Of a stretch of DNA of 20,973 bases, positions 805-11,231 are shown in pieces. The position numbers were made by a program, and so were the translations under genes. The stretch is taken from IMG/VR virus record IMGVR_UViG_3300012147_000107, positions 1-20,973 of that record; one strand, 5' to 3'. Position 1 is the first letter of the stretch; each line of letters opens with the position of its first letter. The notes under the pieces are model-generated. The model was not told where the DNA came from, made no database searches, and saw only the letters and a list, made by a program, of their open reading frames with translations. Source of the stretch: a virus.

Positions 805-2223
805 ATGGCAAATGCAAAAACAGTTTTAAAAGAGACGGCTCTTAGCTTCATTGAAGCGGCTACGAGTTTAGATAATGTGGCTTACTTGGTTAAGTCTCTT
901 GTAGACAATGACATGTACGATTCTACACTTCAAGAAGCGGTGGATAACAAAGTAACGGCTCTTGCTCCTACTTCAAGTGCTAAAAATGTGGCATACACTA
1001 TGAGTGCTTTGAGTGCTAGTAAAGAGCTTGATTATAGCATTTATGGAATCGGAACAGTGGGGAAAATAGGCTTTGGTGTTTCGTGTCTAACTGCTTTAGA
1101 AATACCTGATGGGTTTACAGTAGGTACAGGTTACTATACTCTTGGTGCTCCTGATTATGCTCGTTTGTATGATGCGAGTGGTTCACATATGACCGCTATA
1201 AGAAAACACTGGTTTAAAATAACTGGAAATACATTTACTTTTCATGATACCCCAGTGAGCGGTTCTGTTTTACCTCGTATGTTCATAAACGCAGGAATAG
1301 AAGTAAATGCAGTGCTTGTTGACATCCACACTTGCGGAAATGAGGGCGGTGTTTTTGTGAGCAAGCCTAACCTCGACCCATGTTCTACTAGTTCAAGCCA
1401 CAACCCTATATCTGCACTAAATAATTCGCCTGCAAACAATTACGGTGGGCTATATAAGGCTGTAAAAACTCGTGGTGCTGAGTATTTTCTTATGCCAACG
1501 TGGACTTACACTCACTTGGCGTTTATGGCAAAGGCTCACGGCGAAGCATCAACAAGTACTGCGGCATGTGCATTTATAGATGTAAATCCGAAAATGCCAA
1601 AAGGAAATAATAACAATGCACTTCGTGATGTAAACGATAGCGGTGTTACCTTTACTACAAGCGGTTTTTCAAACTGTGCAATGACTGGAAGTGGAAAGCC
1701 TTTTGCAAAAACTACTCACAACGGTCAAGATTGCGGGATAGCTGATTTGAATGGGAATATGAGTGAAGTTTCGAGTGGCTTTACAAGAACTGATGCACTT
1801 GGCTTTTTAGTGATGAAAGAGTCAGTAGACATAAGAAGCATTACTGATGATGGCACTGGAGCTACTGGAGCTTACAACACCGCTCTTTATGATGTCATAG
1901 ACATAAGTGATGTGGTAAGTGACAATAGCGGATGGACTTACTTTGGGAATGGAACAAATCAAGTATTTGGGATGAATACAAACAGAACAACAGACGAGTA
2001 CAAAAGAACTGCTCTAGGTTTACCACTCGCAACTGGTGTCAGTGGTGGAACTACTGAGTTTGGAAACGATGGGCTTTACAGATACTTACGAAACGAGCTG
2101 GCTTGTCTATGCGGTGGCTATTGGGGTAATACTTCTGATGCTGGCGTTTTCTATCGCCATTTGGGCGGTTACCGCACTAGCTCTAGCAATACTGTTGGCG
2201 GACGTGCCTCGTACCTTGTGTGA
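805..2223 (+). CDS. DGR target protein, FGE/C-type-lectin-like, probable phage receptor-binding protein
   Basis: A 472-residue protein with the hallmarks of a diversity-generating retroelement target. The N-terminal part (about 1-85) is probably a tail-attachment region. The C-terminal half resembles the formylglycine-generating-enzyme/C-lectin fold used by many DGR targets: a GIADLNGNMSEV segment (about residues 313-324) matches the usual D-x-x-GN-x-x-EW motif, and the end has a GGYWGN start and a GGRASYLV finish. Residues about 431-468 are encoded by the variable region at 2095-2209. Avd, TR and RT follow immediately. Compared with the TR, 13 codons differ, mostly Asn codons changed to Tyr, Gly, Ser, His or Thr. 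The ATG at 805 has an AAGGAAAA binding site. It probably sits at the tail tip and contacts the host surface, so its diversity would change host range. The fold is inferred from motifs; the DGR link is seen directly. Confidence 0.9.
   Translation: MANAKTVLKETALSFIEAATSLDNVAYLVKSLVDNDMYDSTLQEAVDNKVTALAPTSSAKNVAYTMSALSASKELDYSIYGIGTVGKIGFGVSCLTALEIPDGFTVGTGYYTLGAPDYARLYDASGSHMTAIRKHWFKITGNTFTFHDTPVSGSVLPRMFINAGIEVNAVLVDIHTCGNEGGVFVSKPNLDPCSTSSSHNPISALNNSPANNYGGLYKAVKTRGAEYFLMPTWTYTHLAFMAKAHGEASTSTAACAFIDVNPKMPKGNNNNALRDVNDSGVTFTTSGFSNCAMTGSGKPFAKTTHNGQDCGIADLNGNMSEVSSGFTRTDALGFLVMKESVDIRSITDDGTGATGAYNTALYDVIDISDVVSDNSGWTYFGNGTNQVFGMNTNRTTDEYKRTALGLPLATGVSGGTTEFGNDGLYRYLRNELACLCGGYWGNTSDAGVFYRHLGGYRTSSSNTVGGRASYLV
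2095..2209 (+). other. DGR variable region (VR)
   Basis: A 115-bp segment at the 3' end of the target gene aligns without gaps to 2683-2797 (offset 588). There are 15 mismatches, at 2098, 2108, 2119, 2125, 2152, 2158, 2164, 2165, 2167, 2168, 2170, 2180, 2186, 2192 and 2207, and every one lies opposite an adenine of the TR. About half of the roughly 32 TR adenines are changed; no G, C or T is. The invariant stretch 2193-2206 (TGTTGGCGGACGTG) near the 3' end is the likely initiation-of-mutagenic-homology area. The stop codon at 2221-2223 lies just outside the VR. Confidence 0.97.
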
Positions 2224-2254
2224 GTGAACGATAGTGAGCGGGAGTAAGTAAGAG

Positions 2255-2647
2255 ATGAGCATACATAGCGAAGCGGTTTTAAACAGAAAGTTTATGCAGA
2301 TGATAAAGTTGCTAAACATATACTTGAATCATTTTCCAAGACATGAAAAATATGCTCTCTCAAATGGCATACGCAATACCGCGTATAGTATTTATGACCT
2401 CATAACAGAGTGTCAAAAAAGATACTATAAAAAGACATCGCTCACTGAGCTTGATGTAACTCACGAAAAGCTTCGCATGCAGATTTATCTCGCAAACGAG
2501 TTAGGGTACTTCACTTTTAAAGATGGAAAACCAAACAAAGAAGTAGATGCACCAAAGAGATTTTTAGCGATATCTAATCTAATAGATGAGATAGGAAAAA
2601 TCATAGGAGCTTGGATAAACAAGCTTCGTGAGGCTGGAAAAATATAA
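2255..2647 (+). CDS. avd: DGR accessory protein Avd (four-helix bundle)
   Basis: A 130-residue, almost entirely helical, basic protein. It has the length, charge pattern and sequence of the Avd/S23-like family: NGIRNTAYSIYDLI near the middle of the N-terminal half and a KRFLAISNLIDEIGKIIGAW segment near the C-terminus. In studied DGRs Avd forms a pentameric barrel that binds the reverse transcriptase and TR RNA and is needed for adenine-mutagenic cDNA synthesis. It lies between the VR-bearing gene (31 bp upstream) and the RT, the classic cassette order. Its TAA stop overlaps the ATG of the RT frame by one base (TAATG at 2645-2649), suggesting translational coupling. Confidence 0.92.
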   Translation: MSIHSEAVLNRKFMQMIKLLNIYLNHFPRHEKYALSNGIRNTAYSIYDLITECQKRYYKKTSLTELDVTHEKLRMQIYLANELGYFTFKDGKPNKEVDAPKRFLAISNLIDEIGKIIGAWINKLREAGKI

Positions 2648-3918
2648 TGAAGAATATAGGGCACGATAGCAATATGAAATCTGAGATGGCTTGTCAATGC
2701 GGTGGCAATTGGAGTAATACTTCTGATGCTGGCGTTTTCAATCGCAATTTGAACAATAACCGCACTAACTCTAACAATAATGTTGGCGGACGTGACTGTT
2801 TTTCTAAACTTGAAACAACAAAAGTTGATACTAGAAAAAGAGGGATATCGTGTCCTGCTATTAGCGAAATCAAAAATGAAGAAAGTCTTTTGAGTAGCAG
2901 TGTCGAAAATCAGACTAAATCAAAACGAGTAGGCTTTTTGTTTGAAAAAGCTTTTACTAAAGAAAACCTATATGATGCTTTTTTGGACGCAAGAAAAGGC
3001 AAAAGAGTTAAAAGTGCAACACTTAAATTTGAAGTAAATTTAGGTTCAGAAATTGAGTCATTATACAAAGAACTACACGGTGGAACATATAAGCCTAGAG
3101 CTTACTCACAGTTTTATGTGTATGAACCAAAAAAGAGACTTATAAATGCACCATCGTTTAGAGACTTGGTCGTGCAACATGCCATATACAGAACCATATA
3201 TGATGTGTTTGATAGAACTTTTGTAGATACTTCTTATGCCTGTAGAAAAGGCGGTGGAACTCATAAAGCAAGTCATTACACTCAAAGAGAGATACGAAAG
3301 TATGATGGAAATTTGTACTTTATCAAGTTAGACATTAGAAAGTTTTTTTACTCTATCGATAGACAAATTCTTAGAAAAATGTTTGAGAAGAAAATAAAAG
3401 ATACGAGATTTATAGACATCATGTGTGAGTTTATGGAGATGAACACAGAAAAAGGCATACCAATAGGAAATCTTCTATCACAGATTTATGCACTTATATA
3501 TCTTAATCCACTGGATCACTTTATAAAGAGAGAACTTAAGGTTAAAAGTTATGTTCGCTATGTGGATGATTTTGTAATGATAGGATTAAGCCTAGAAAAA
3601 GCAAAAGAGTTTAAAAGTAGATGCGAGAAGTTTGTACAAGATGAACTTAGTTTAGAATTATCGCACTGGCATATTCAAAAGATTAAACGCGGGATTAATT
3701 TCGTAGGTTATAGAACTTGGAAAAGCATTAAGTTCGTAAGAAAACATAGTATTTATAAAATGAAAAAAGCAATTAAAAAACTCAAAATTGAGTCAATAAT
3801 TTCCTTAATAGGGCATGCAAAAAGAACTGCAACTATGCCCTATTATAGAAGATTGTTGATTGAATCTGATGTTTTAAATTTATTACCAAAGAGGAGCGTG
3901 GCATGTTTAAATATATAA
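2647..3918 (+). CDS. DGR-type reverse transcriptase with TR-encoded N-terminal extension
   Basis: A 423-residue frame whose conserved reverse transcriptase begins near residue 95 (VGFLFEKAF), where known DGR RTs start. Visible motifs: YEPKKRLINAP (159-169), KLDIRKFFYSID (227-238, catalytic Asp229), GIPIGNLLSQ (270-279, where the terminal SQ marks DGR enzymes rather than group II intron or retron RTs), YVRYVDD (302-308, catalytic Asp307/308) and GINFVGYR (349-356). It copies TR RNA into adenine-mutagenised cDNA that replaces the VR. Residues 1-94 are read through the TR and a spacer with no stop codon. The ATG at 2647 overlaps the avd stop, which supports it as the real start, but no later in-frame Met precedes the domain. 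A start at a TTG/GTG downstream of the TR (for example near 2888) cannot be excluded. The core call is firm; the start is uncertain. Confidence 0.95.
   Translation: MKNIGHDSNMKSEMACQCGGNWSNTSDAGVFNRNLNNNRTNSNNNVGGRDCFSKLETTKVDTRKRGISCPAISEIKNEESLLSSSVENQTKSKRVGFLFEKAFTKENLYDAFLDARKGKRVKSATLKFEVNLGSEIESLYKELHGGTYKPRAYSQFYVYEPKKRLINAPSFRDLVVQHAIYRTIYDVFDRTFVDTSYACRKGGGTHKASHYTQREIRKYDGNLYFIKLDIRKFFYSIDRQILRKMFEKKIKDTRFIDIMCEFMEMNTEKGIPIGNLLSQIYALIYLNPLDHFIKRELKVKSYVRYVDDFVMIGLSLEKAKEFKSRCEKFVQDELSLELSHWHIQKIKRGINFVGYRTWKSIKFVRKHSIYKMKKAIKKLKIESIISLIGHAKRTATMPYYRRLLIESDVLNLLPKRSVACLNI
2683..2797 (+). other. DGR template repeat (TR)
   Basis: The partner of the VR, located between avd and the conserved RT domain. 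Its sequence is rich in AAT/AAC codons (Asn), which adenine mutagenesis can turn into many amino acids but not into stop codons. Homology to the VR begins at GAG (2683) and ends at ACT (2795-2797); flanking bases do not align. The TR is in the same translational phase as the VR and also in phase with the RT frame, so it is predicted to be translated as residues 13-50 of that frame. Confidence 0.97.
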
Positions 3919-4529: not shown

Positions 4530-4880
4530 ATGCTTTATATACTAATTGCTGCAATAACACTTGGAGTTGGTAGCTATCTATATAACGGTGGTACTCCCGA
4601 GCCAAGTGATAGTGAGTACCTGAGAGTTTATAAAATCACTCATGCAAATAAACTGAGTGATGAGGCAATACTTCAAGAGAGAAAAGAAGATGAAGTTACT
4701 CGTCTAAAATGGAAAGCAACAAACTCCATGTTGGATGATGAGCTAATAAGAAGAGGTCTTAATGCAAATGAGTACAAGATGCAAAAAGCACTCGACCAGA
4801 CACTATTTTACAACAAGCATTATGATGACGATATGAGTGTATCTGACTTTGTTAATATGCAGTATCAAAAGAGTAAGTGA
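4530..4880 (+). CDS. Phage protein with N-terminal membrane anchor, unknown function
   Basis: 116 residues. An N-terminal hydrophobic segment (about 1-16, LYILIAAITLGVGSYLY) acts as an anchor or uncleaved signal. It is followed by a charged helical domain rich in Lys, Glu and Asp. There is no Cys lipobox. It follows the small membrane protein after one spacer base and ends with TGATG, overlapping the holin-like start by one base. It belongs to the lysis or late operon; no function is assigned. Confidence 0.7.
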   Translation: MLYILIAAITLGVGSYLYNGGTPEPSDSEYLRVYKITHANKLSDEAILQERKEDEVTRLKWKATNSMLDDELIRRGLNANEYKMQKALDQTLFYNKHYDDDMSVSDFVNMQYQKSK

Positions 4881-5098: not shown

Positions 5099-5457
5099 AT
5101 AATTTATATTTGTTTGGTGGCATAACTGCTTTGTTTGTTTTGCTTGGTGGGTACTGCTATACAAGTACAAACAACTTAGAAAAAGAACTTCTTGAGACTC
5201 AAAAGCAAGTACTAAAAGCTAAAACACAATCTACTCTATACAAATCTTCACTTGATACTCAATCGGCTCACATAGAGTCTGTGAGAGAAGATTATGAAAT
5301 GAAGATTAAAGAGTACAAAGCATTTACCCCAGAAGTAAAATATAGAGTCGTTTATAGAGACGTTGTAAGAGATATGAATTTAACAAAGGAGAGTAGCTGT
5401 GAAGATGTTAAAAATATCATTGATGGTGTTCGTGCTATTGACTTTTCAAGCTTGTAG
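5095..5457 (+). CDS. Rz-like inner-membrane spanin subunit (i-spanin)
   Basis: 120 residues from the GTG at 5095, which overlaps the holin-like stop (GTGA). An ATG-initiated frame could begin at 5008, but that start lies deep in the preceding gene. One N-terminal transmembrane helix (about 3-21, LYLFGGITALFVLLGGYCY) is followed by a periplasmic coiled coil (LEKELLETQKQVLKAKTQ onward) and a polar C-terminus. This is the usual Rz architecture. Rz proteins pair with the outer-membrane lipoprotein Rz1 to disrupt the outer membrane in the last step of lysis of Gram-negative hosts. The downstream gene overlaps its 3' end out of frame, as in classic embedded or overlapping Rz/Rz1 pairs. Confidence 0.75.
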   Translation: MNNLYLFGGITALFVLLGGYCYTSTNNLEKELLETQKQVLKAKTQSTLYKSSLDTQSAHIESVREDYEMKIKEYKAFTPEVKYRVVYRDVVRDMNLTKESSCEDVKNIIDGVRAIDFSSL

Positions 5458-5644: not shown

Positions 5645-6041
5645 ATACTATCAAAGAACAGCCATAGCTTTAGAGGACATAGAAGAACTAAAAAAAGGAC
5701 ACACTCTCCTTGAAGCGAGCATGAAATCAGTGCATAAACGCATGGACGAAGATAATAAAATAAGAATTGAAACGCATGATAGTGTTGTCTCGCTCTCTCA
5801 GGATATGAAGTCTTATAAAACACAAGAAACTAATCGTAGGAATTTCCTTTTATCTATTTTTAGTTTCATTTTTGTAATTGCGATGTCTGTTTCTGGATGG
5901 GTTTTTGTTACTATAAATGAGAACAAAGATAGAAGTAAATCCAACGAGCAAGCTTTAAACTCTATGTCAAAAAGTGTAGATAAGATTGATAGCAATGTGG
6001 AAAATATAAAAGAGATACTTTTTAGTATCAAAAAAGGATAA
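5616..6041 (+). CDS. Coiled-coil/transmembrane phage protein of the lysis region
   Basis: 141 residues from the ATG at 5616, chosen because GGAG lies 9 bp upstream; the in-frame ATG at 5601 has no such site. Layout: an acidic coiled coil (about 15-70), one transmembrane helix (about 76-100, NFLLSIFSFIFVIAMSVSGW) and a second coiled coil (about 105-140). This helix-TM-helix form recalls hemolysin XhlA-like proteins that assist holins, but no direct family match is claimed. It overlaps the Rz1 gene by 29 bp and ends 3 bp before the lysozyme start, so co-expression is expected. Confidence 0.65.
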   Translation: MGNEIVEDCKYYQRTAIALEDIEELKKGHTLLEASMKSVHKRMDEDNKIRIETHDSVVSLSQDMKSYKTQETNRRNFLLSIFSFIFVIAMSVSGWVFVTINENKDRSKSNEQALNSMSKSVDKIDSNVENIKEILFSIKKG

Positions 6042-9785: not shown

Positions 9786-9999
9786 AAGAAAGTCTTTTTA
9801 TTTTTGCATCAAGCCCTATATCTTCATAAAACTTATAAATCTCATGTTTATCACATGTGTCAGTTTCAAAAACTTCTTTATTTTTCAAGGAACAGATTCC
9901 ACTATCTGTATCTTCTAAACTATCTGGAAAATTCATATAGAGACAATTTATGCATTTTGCATCAAAAGTTATCTCTAGTTTTAGTTGGATTGTTTTCAT
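9778..9999 (-). CDS. Small Cys-rich, probable zinc-binding protein
   Basis: 73 residues with four spaced cysteines: CINC (16 and 19), GICSL (36) and DTCDKHE (49). This is a pattern able to bind one zinc ion (C-x2-C...C...C). It starts MKTIQLKLE. Its ATG overlaps the methyltransferase TAA (TAATG at 10001-9997). The DNA of the start (ACAATCCAACTAA) is shared with the RHH gene start. Function unknown; co-transcribed with the methyltransferase. Confidence 0.65.
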   Translation of the reverse strand: MKTIQLKLEITFDAKCINCLYMNFPDSLEDTDSGICSLKNKEVFETDTCDKHEIYKFYEDIGLDAKIKRLSYE

Positions 10000-11231
10000 T
10001 ATGCAACTCCCATAAAGTCAAATAAGTTGTTTTGAGTTTGTTGCTTGCATAAAGCCCTAATGATTGACCGCATCGTATTTACTTCGATTGCATTTCCAGC
10101 GATTCTATAACTTTGTGTATCTGAGTTGATTAGATTTATATCTTCATCTTTTATGCCTTGAAGTCTGAAACATTCGCTAGGAGTTAATCTTCTGATTTTA
10201 TATTCATCGATCACTGCTTGATTACAAGCACAATCTAAAGTCTGAGCTACACCTTTTCCTACTCTTCCTCTTCTTGTTCCGCTGTTTGGATGAGTGAAGT
10301 TGATTGAATCGTTTTGCGTTGCTGTTTCATATCCTGATTTAGTTGCAGATTTAATTTGGTATAAACCAGTTTTCCCACCACCACCACCACCATTGGCACT
10401 TAAACACATTGCAAGACCATCATCTGTGTAAACTCTTCCAGCTACACTATTATGCTCATTGTCATATATGTTCCCTACTTGTTTTAAAATAGGCTCTTTT
10501 ATGTATGGGTCTGTTGTTCCCATCTTGTTGTATCTGGCTGTTAAGCATTTAGAATGCGAATCGTCTTTGCTATGTGGTGCATTATCTATCTTTTGATTAC
10601 TAAGACAATCAATCATCTTCTGAGATAGATAATACTTTTCATCAACATCATCTTCTAAATAATCTCTTAATGTTTTAGTTAATGGAACTTTATCTTCAAA
10701 ACTAAAGTCGTGATAAGCATCTTCATCTAAAAATCCAACTACAAAAACTCTTTCACGATTCTGTGCTGTTCCATGCTCTTTCGCATTTAAAACTTTCATT
10801 GCAATTAAATAGCCTAAGTCTTGAAATGTTTTTATTACTTCTTTGTAATCTGCTCCACCATTTGAACTAAGTAGTCCTTTTACATTTTCAAATATAAATG
10901 TTTTTGGCATCATCTCACTCATAACTCTTGCACCCTCTCTAAATAAAGAAGATTTAGCACCATCAAAACCTTTTCGTTTTCCTGCAAGCGATAAGTCTTG
11001 GCATGGACTTCCCCAGACAAATAAATCAATCTCGTCTTTATATTTAGTTGCGTTCAAGTCTGATATGTCGTTATAAAATATCCCAGGCTCTCCATGAAAC
11101 TCTAAATATTGACTTCTGGCATATTTATCCCACTCACAAGCAAAGACTACTTGATGCTCTATATCCTCATATCTTAGTGCAAACTCACAAGCAGCAAGTC
11201 CACCACTAAATGCTGTAGCTACTTTCATCAA
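9999..11231 (-). CDS. DNA (cytosine-5-)-methyltransferase
   Basis: 410 residues. C5-methyltransferase motifs occur in order: I, TAFSGGLAACEFAL (6-19, AdoMet binding); IV, GSPCQDLSLAGKR (74-86, nucleophile Cys77); VI, FIFENVKGL (112-120); VIII, QNRERVFVVGF (157-167); then a target-recognition region (about 200-355) with repeated segments ending in LTARYNKMG, LSANGGGGGG and LDCACNQ; IX, RRLTPSECFRLQG; and X, YRIAGNAIEV. It transfers a methyl group from AdoMet to C5 of cytosine in a sequence not deducible here. No endonuclease gene adjoins it, so it looks like an orphan phage enzyme for protection against host restriction or for regulation. Start coupled to the upstream gene (ATGA). Confidence 0.96.
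   Translation of the reverse strand: MMKVATAFSGGLAACEFALRYEDIEHQVVFACEWDKYARSQYLEFHGEPGIFYNDISDLNATKYKDEIDLFVWGSPCQDLSLAGKRKGFDGAKSSLFREGARVMSEMMPKTFIFENVKGLLSSNGGADYKEVIKTFQDLGYLIAMKVLNAKEHGTAQNRERVFVVGFLDEDAYHDFSFEDKVPLTKTLRDYLEDDVDEKYYLSQKMIDCLSNQKIDNAPHSKDDSHSKCLTARYNKMGTTDPYIKEPILKQVGNIYDNEHNSVAGRVYTDDGLAMCLSANGGGGGGKTGLYQIKSATKSGYETATQNDSINFTHPNSGTRRGRVGKGVAQTLDCACNQAVIDEYKIRRLTPSECFRLQGIKDEDINLINSDTQSYRIAGNAIEVNTMRSIIRALCKQQTQNNLFDFMGVA

Follow-up and report, generated by a model that had tools for sequence, protein, structure and literature searches.

The window, a virus record of 20,973 bases, very probably carries a temperate-phage DGR whose RNA (a clasp helix, the template region and a spacer stem) coincides with the 5' part of the RT coding sequence and is translated through. 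The template region (TR) lies within the RT ORF and in frame with it, not beside it, an arrangement missed by an earlier, sequence-only reading of this DNA. In DGRs, the RNA that surrounds the TR is bound by RT and Avd, which prime from the spacer, and the resulting cDNA, with errors at adenines, replaces the variable region (VR) (PMC12875486).

The cassette and its proteins

All features described here are on the + strand. The VR occupies positions 2095..2209 and the TR positions 2683..2797, and a repeat search of the window matched them over 115 nt (ungapped, 87%). Recounting gave 15 mismatches, each of them opposite a TR adenine, while the remaining 83 positions all match, so that the alignment described in the sequence-only reading was exact, coordinates included. 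The probability that 15 random mismatches would all fall on A is 2.4e-10. The VR differs from the TR at 15 of the 32 TR adenines and, in the frame of the target gene, every mismatch is at codon position 1 or 2. The A-biased VR/TR pattern is also present in most related loci. The range formerly assigned to the element (2095-2797) does take in the VR, avd and the TR, but it excludes the RT gene (ending at 3918) and the greater part of the target gene (starting at 805). A different arrangement was observed in locus L070, where one TR (5831-5914) is accompanied by two VR-like copies (4771-4849 and 5305-5388), a possible two-target DGR; L071 is organized likewise.

The target (variable) protein gene (805..2223) encodes 472 aa with a C-terminal FGE-type C-lectin fold, and the VR is located at its 3' end, stopping 14 nt short of the end of the gene. 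The target sequence on its own has no Pfam match. However, a profile built from 22 relatives matches the solved DGR variable protein TaqVP (5vf4) with an E-value of 4.2e-43, in agreement with the C-lectin/FGE-type target proposed earlier, and the protein also matches phrog_2889. The structure prediction that had been suggested as a check points in the same direction, since 5vf4 is the best Foldseek match of the model (E 2.9e-3, probability 0.99), with a TM score of only 0.27. This low score is due to the badly modelled C-terminus (pLDDT below 50 at residues 251-320 and 414-469), and the fold assignment therefore rests on the sequence profile. The target would be a receptor-type tail protein, presumably one that binds a receptor.

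The avd gene (2255..2647) encodes an accessory protein of 130 aa that matches PF22296 (bAvd, E 6e-19) and phrog_3206 (Avd, E 1e-20), as well as NF033474 (E 3e-19) with 69.4 bits, under the cut-off of 80 for that model. The RT ORF (2647..3918, 423 aa) matches RVT_1 and phrog_1423 (E 9e-113); the RT core begins at about 2923 and contains the motifs IGNLLSQ (SQ motif) and YVDD. Residues 93-379 match the RT chain of PDB 8ub7 (E 1.3e-68), which we take to be the BPP-1 cryo-EM entry. These matches bear out the presence of both RT and Avd that had been read from the sequence. Several features by which a DGR is recognized are found together: an A-restricted VR/TR pair, a DGR-type RT, Avd, a 3' VR in a C-lectin target and structured RNA flanking the TR. 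Judged by its sequence, the locus is a genuine DGR, and its RT is, by these matches, of the Bordetella-phage kind (bRT-type).

The template region and its flanks as RT codons

The TR corresponds to RT codons 13-51 and is read in the same frame as the VR in the target gene. The ATG of the RT ORF, at 2647, overlaps the avd stop codon and would be the translation start. For comparison, 72 viral and 15 genome loci were gathered, most of them metagenome assemblies. The TR-in-RT layout is common to the loci whose RT is at least about 67% identical, while in the sister loci L029-L034 (57-61%), L035 and L076 stop codons separate the TR from the RT. In the tree, the 23 fused rows form one group (support 98/96), which branches from within the DGRs whose TR and RT are separate; the most parsimonious history is thus a single gain of the layout.

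Within this fused clade, all 23 RT ORFs have an ATG or GTG located 3-5 codons ahead of a conserved glycine encoded in the 5' arm of the clasp. In none of the 23 does a stop interrupt frame 0 of the linker between TR and RT core (residues 52-97), and in every one of them frames +1 and +2 contain stops. The span from one clasp arm to the other takes six lengths (189, 195, 198, 201, 204 and 207 nt), all of them multiples of three, whereas the spans of 28 separate DGRs are spread 11/9/8 over the three frames. No conserved start codon was found downstream of the TR in the fused-clade comparison.

These observations bear on the alternative that this is an ordinary DGR, in which TR and RT share a frame by chance of ORF calling, the RT starts after the TR (the window has a possible start for a shorter RT in the TTG at 2890) and the TR and its flanks are noncoding, as in BPP-1. 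Such an organization exists, since in BPP-1 and in the sisters L029, L032 and L034 the RT begins after the TR, with stops between them. Chance in-frame cases exist as well: the Vibrio phages VP58.5 and VHML (L094 and L097) carry nearly the same DGR, and the annotated RT CDS of VP58.5 (gp18-gp20) spans the TR in frame, but in VHML the TR-RT frame is broken by a single additional base and is thus not conserved between near twins, and the VP58.5 RT is distant from that of the window. However, a chance frame does not account for 23 open ORFs out of 23, for six arm spans that are all multiples of three, for the permanent closure of the other two frames, or for an upstream start that is conserved when downstream starts are not. 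We therefore regard the ordinary organization as unlikely for the fused clade.

Codon evolution points to a constraint below the protein level. Synonymous differences amount to 0.26 per site in residues 52-77 compared with 0.74 in the RT core, indicating that the RNA is constrained beneath the code, while pN/pS is 0.66 in the same residues (bootstrap 0.44-1.08) and 0.20 in the core. Amino-acid constraint on the linker is thus weak, and the linker peptide itself may have no function. A contrary reading, in which the TR-encoded N-terminus is a functional RT protein domain and the RNA helices are secondary, could draw on the conserved peptide motifs GQHSNMK and CCPAISEIK in the N-termini of the fused RTs. 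Nevertheless, AlphaFold gives residues 1-92 a pLDDT below 50, synonymous sites are constrained and the residues encoded by the clasp arms vary in concert with the base pairing (H-C, C-Y, Y-Y, C-H, S-G), all of which makes this reading very improbable.

The RNA in question contains an 11-bp clasp helix that encloses the TR, followed by a second stem. Pairing between the TR flanks was first spotted by eye and later computed. The 5' arm of the clasp (AGGGCACGATA, 2658..2668) lies inside RT codons 4-8 and was placed by covariation, and the 3' arm (TATCGTGTCCT, 2846..2856), also inside RT codons, by covariation and the single-sequence fold. The spacer stem (2796..2842, arms at about 2796-2810 and 2823-2842), supported by RNAalifold, pair counts and the single-sequence fold, covaries and is likewise contained in RT codons. 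A small hairpin, GC-TATTA-GC (2857..2865), was detected by RNAalifold and pair counts; its GC/GC arms are swapped with GG/CC in relatives, its second pair being C-G in 15 sequences and G-C in 6.

RNAalifold, applied to 21 sequences, recovered the clasp, the spacer stem starting at the end of the TR and the small hairpin. Standard pairs make up 251 of the 253 clasp pairs in the fused clade. Over the 21 sequences, 97.3% of the cells are paired and 13 pairs have double changes; cells with double changes number 47, compared with 11.9 (sd 2.7) in shuffled alignments and 3-7 when the arms are slid. The window on its own folds likewise (z -2.0), and Rfam holds no matching family. Given the conservation of frame, start and span, together with covarying helices within RT codons, we conclude that the DGR RNA and the RT N-terminus are very probably dually encoded.

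The clasp was also examined beyond this clade. In 54 nonredundant DGR loci, the ungapped helix score of each locus with its own arms averaged 25.8, compared with 19.1 for permuted arms and 17.6 for shuffled flanks, and none of 2000 permutations reached the own-arm score. When the TR flanks were instead folded as gapped duplexes, true arms could not be told from permuted ones (median rank 0.29). Clasps around the TR were seen, with quite different sequences, in diverse DGRs (flanks of L036, L037, L038 and L041-L085). Since it occurs in diverse DGRs with divergent arms, the clasp looks like a general feature of DGR RNA that could be used as a search model.

Activity, target site and host

The sequence-only reading had taken the high share of substituted adenines as a sign of recent or frequent activity, a claim that is not supported in that form, since the VR of the window is identical in contigs L003 and L004 and changes at 15 of 32 adenines point to no more than one necessary event of mutagenic homing. 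One of these two contigs has 11 differences from the window in the 1000 bases upstream. When additional VR/TR copies were sought with every A position set to N, only L003 and L004 came up, so that the window VR was compared over three contigs, in whose assembly variants may be hidden. The comparison of VRs that had been recommended thus gave an invariant VR for the window itself, but turnover in close relatives. For instance, L018 and L020 have identical avd, TR and 1200 RT bases and only 3 differences in the 1000 bases upstream, and yet their VRs differ at 14 positions, all of them TR adenines. This comparison of sequences indirectly shows DGR activity in close relatives of the same build, and mutagenic retrohoming by the window copy would fit with it. 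L015 and L016 differ at 19 A positions and 4 others, with some general divergence. Outside this clade, the pairs L045/L046 and L047/L048 agree fully in their TR and in the 1000 bases upstream, while their VRs differ at 17 and 14 A positions, respectively; by this pattern they are active DGRs of another group.

The identical VRs of the window, L003 and L004 could be taken to mean that VR and TR represent not a working DGR but a duplication that is inactive or has decayed. Mismatches restricted to adenines, intact RT motifs alongside Avd and the VR turnover in close relatives make this extremely unlikely.

Directly after the target gene there is a putative target-site DNA hairpin, GTGAAC-[GATA]-GTGAGC (2224..2239), identified as a conserved motif. 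Published phage DGR hairpins have a GC-rich stem of 7-10 bp and a GRNA loop (PMC3240598). The hairpin of the window has the GRNA loop but not such a stem: its stem is six positions long and includes one G-T as well as two tandem G-A mismatches. The arrangement N2-GA-N2-[GRNA]-N2-GA-N2 is present in 21 of 22 fused loci, against 0.3% in shuffled sequences, and the flanking pairs vary but mostly remain paired, which suggests that the motif may form a hairpin in DNA. Pairing is complete around the G-A step in L018 (ATCG-GA-GC[GATA]GC-GA-CGAT) and L044 (GGCC-GA-GC[GGGA]GC-GA-GGCC). A search of the fused clade for a post-VR hairpin paired throughout gave none. Stems with tandem G-A also occur in L029, L034, L044 and L076.

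The window contains an integrase and an S24-type repressor, and, among named genomes, its closest relatives are in a Sulfurovum MAG (79%) and a Campylobacterales MAG (73%). The phage is temperate and, judging by these relatives, probably infects Campylobacterota. The tail neighbourhood proposed for the target gene is supported by relative L005, in which a tape-measure gene lies directly upstream, at the head of the same row of genes. Host-range switching may be the role of target diversification. The window also encodes a phage-borne DNA cytosine-5 methyltransferase (9999-11231, TIGR00675).

Relation to known systems and biological meaning

The DGR of the window resembles that of BPP-1 (mtd-avd-TR-brt) in the order VR, avd, TR, RT, in the A-only changes and in its homologous RT; BPP-1 likewise carries the flank element GTCCTGC(N4-5)GCGAA, along with a clasp-like pairing that is weaker. 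However, the TR and spacer of BPP-1 are outside brt, while both are RT codons in the window, and the stem of the BPP-1 hairpin is an 8 bp inverted repeat, whereas that of the window contains tandem G-A mismatches. The Thermus aquaticus prophage DGR shares the target family (TaqVP, 5VF4), the FGE-type C-lectin fold and the avd-TR-RT order, but its RT gene is described as following the TR (PMC6328139). The overlap of the TR with an annotated RT ORF defines group 3 of the 2012 DiGReF catalogue (PMC3521204), to which the window conforms, and the layout itself was therefore already known. That grouping is based on annotation and, as far as the accessible text of the paper goes, no test of start codon, frame or RNA covariation is reported (PMC3521204). 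The literature searched contained no evidence of dual coding from selection, frame or covariation; a 2025 Nature study of the BPP-1 DGR RNA falls outside that coverage and may describe the clasp.

In the mechanism that we propose, the RT message would be translated from the ATG or GTG upstream of the 5' clasp arm and on through arm, TR and spacer, yielding an RT whose N-terminal tail, disordered over about 92 residues, bears the TR peptide. Avd and the bRT-type RT would copy the TR RNA into cDNA, making errors at adenines, and this cDNA would replace the VR at the 3' end of the gene for the C-lectin-type, tail-associated protein. Because the RNA scaffold is here RT coding sequence, ribosomes and the RT-Avd complex might compete for one RNA, which could limit RT synthesis. 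More tentatively, the embedded template might act as a switch in which translation and RT-Avd-RNA assembly are mutually exclusive, RT is self-limiting and its action has a cis preference, with the target hairpin of the clade using tandem G-A pairs and not a GC stem; we consider this possible but doubtful.

The fused clade provides about two dozen natural DGRs in which one stretch of RNA meets the demands of a conserved fold together with those of a protein reading frame. With such a set, the flanking-RNA model of DGR priming can be tested by covariation and recoding. These loci suggest that a DGR can do without a separate noncoding stretch for its RNA and, if translation and template use compete, the arrangement would provide a simple feedback on mutagenesis.
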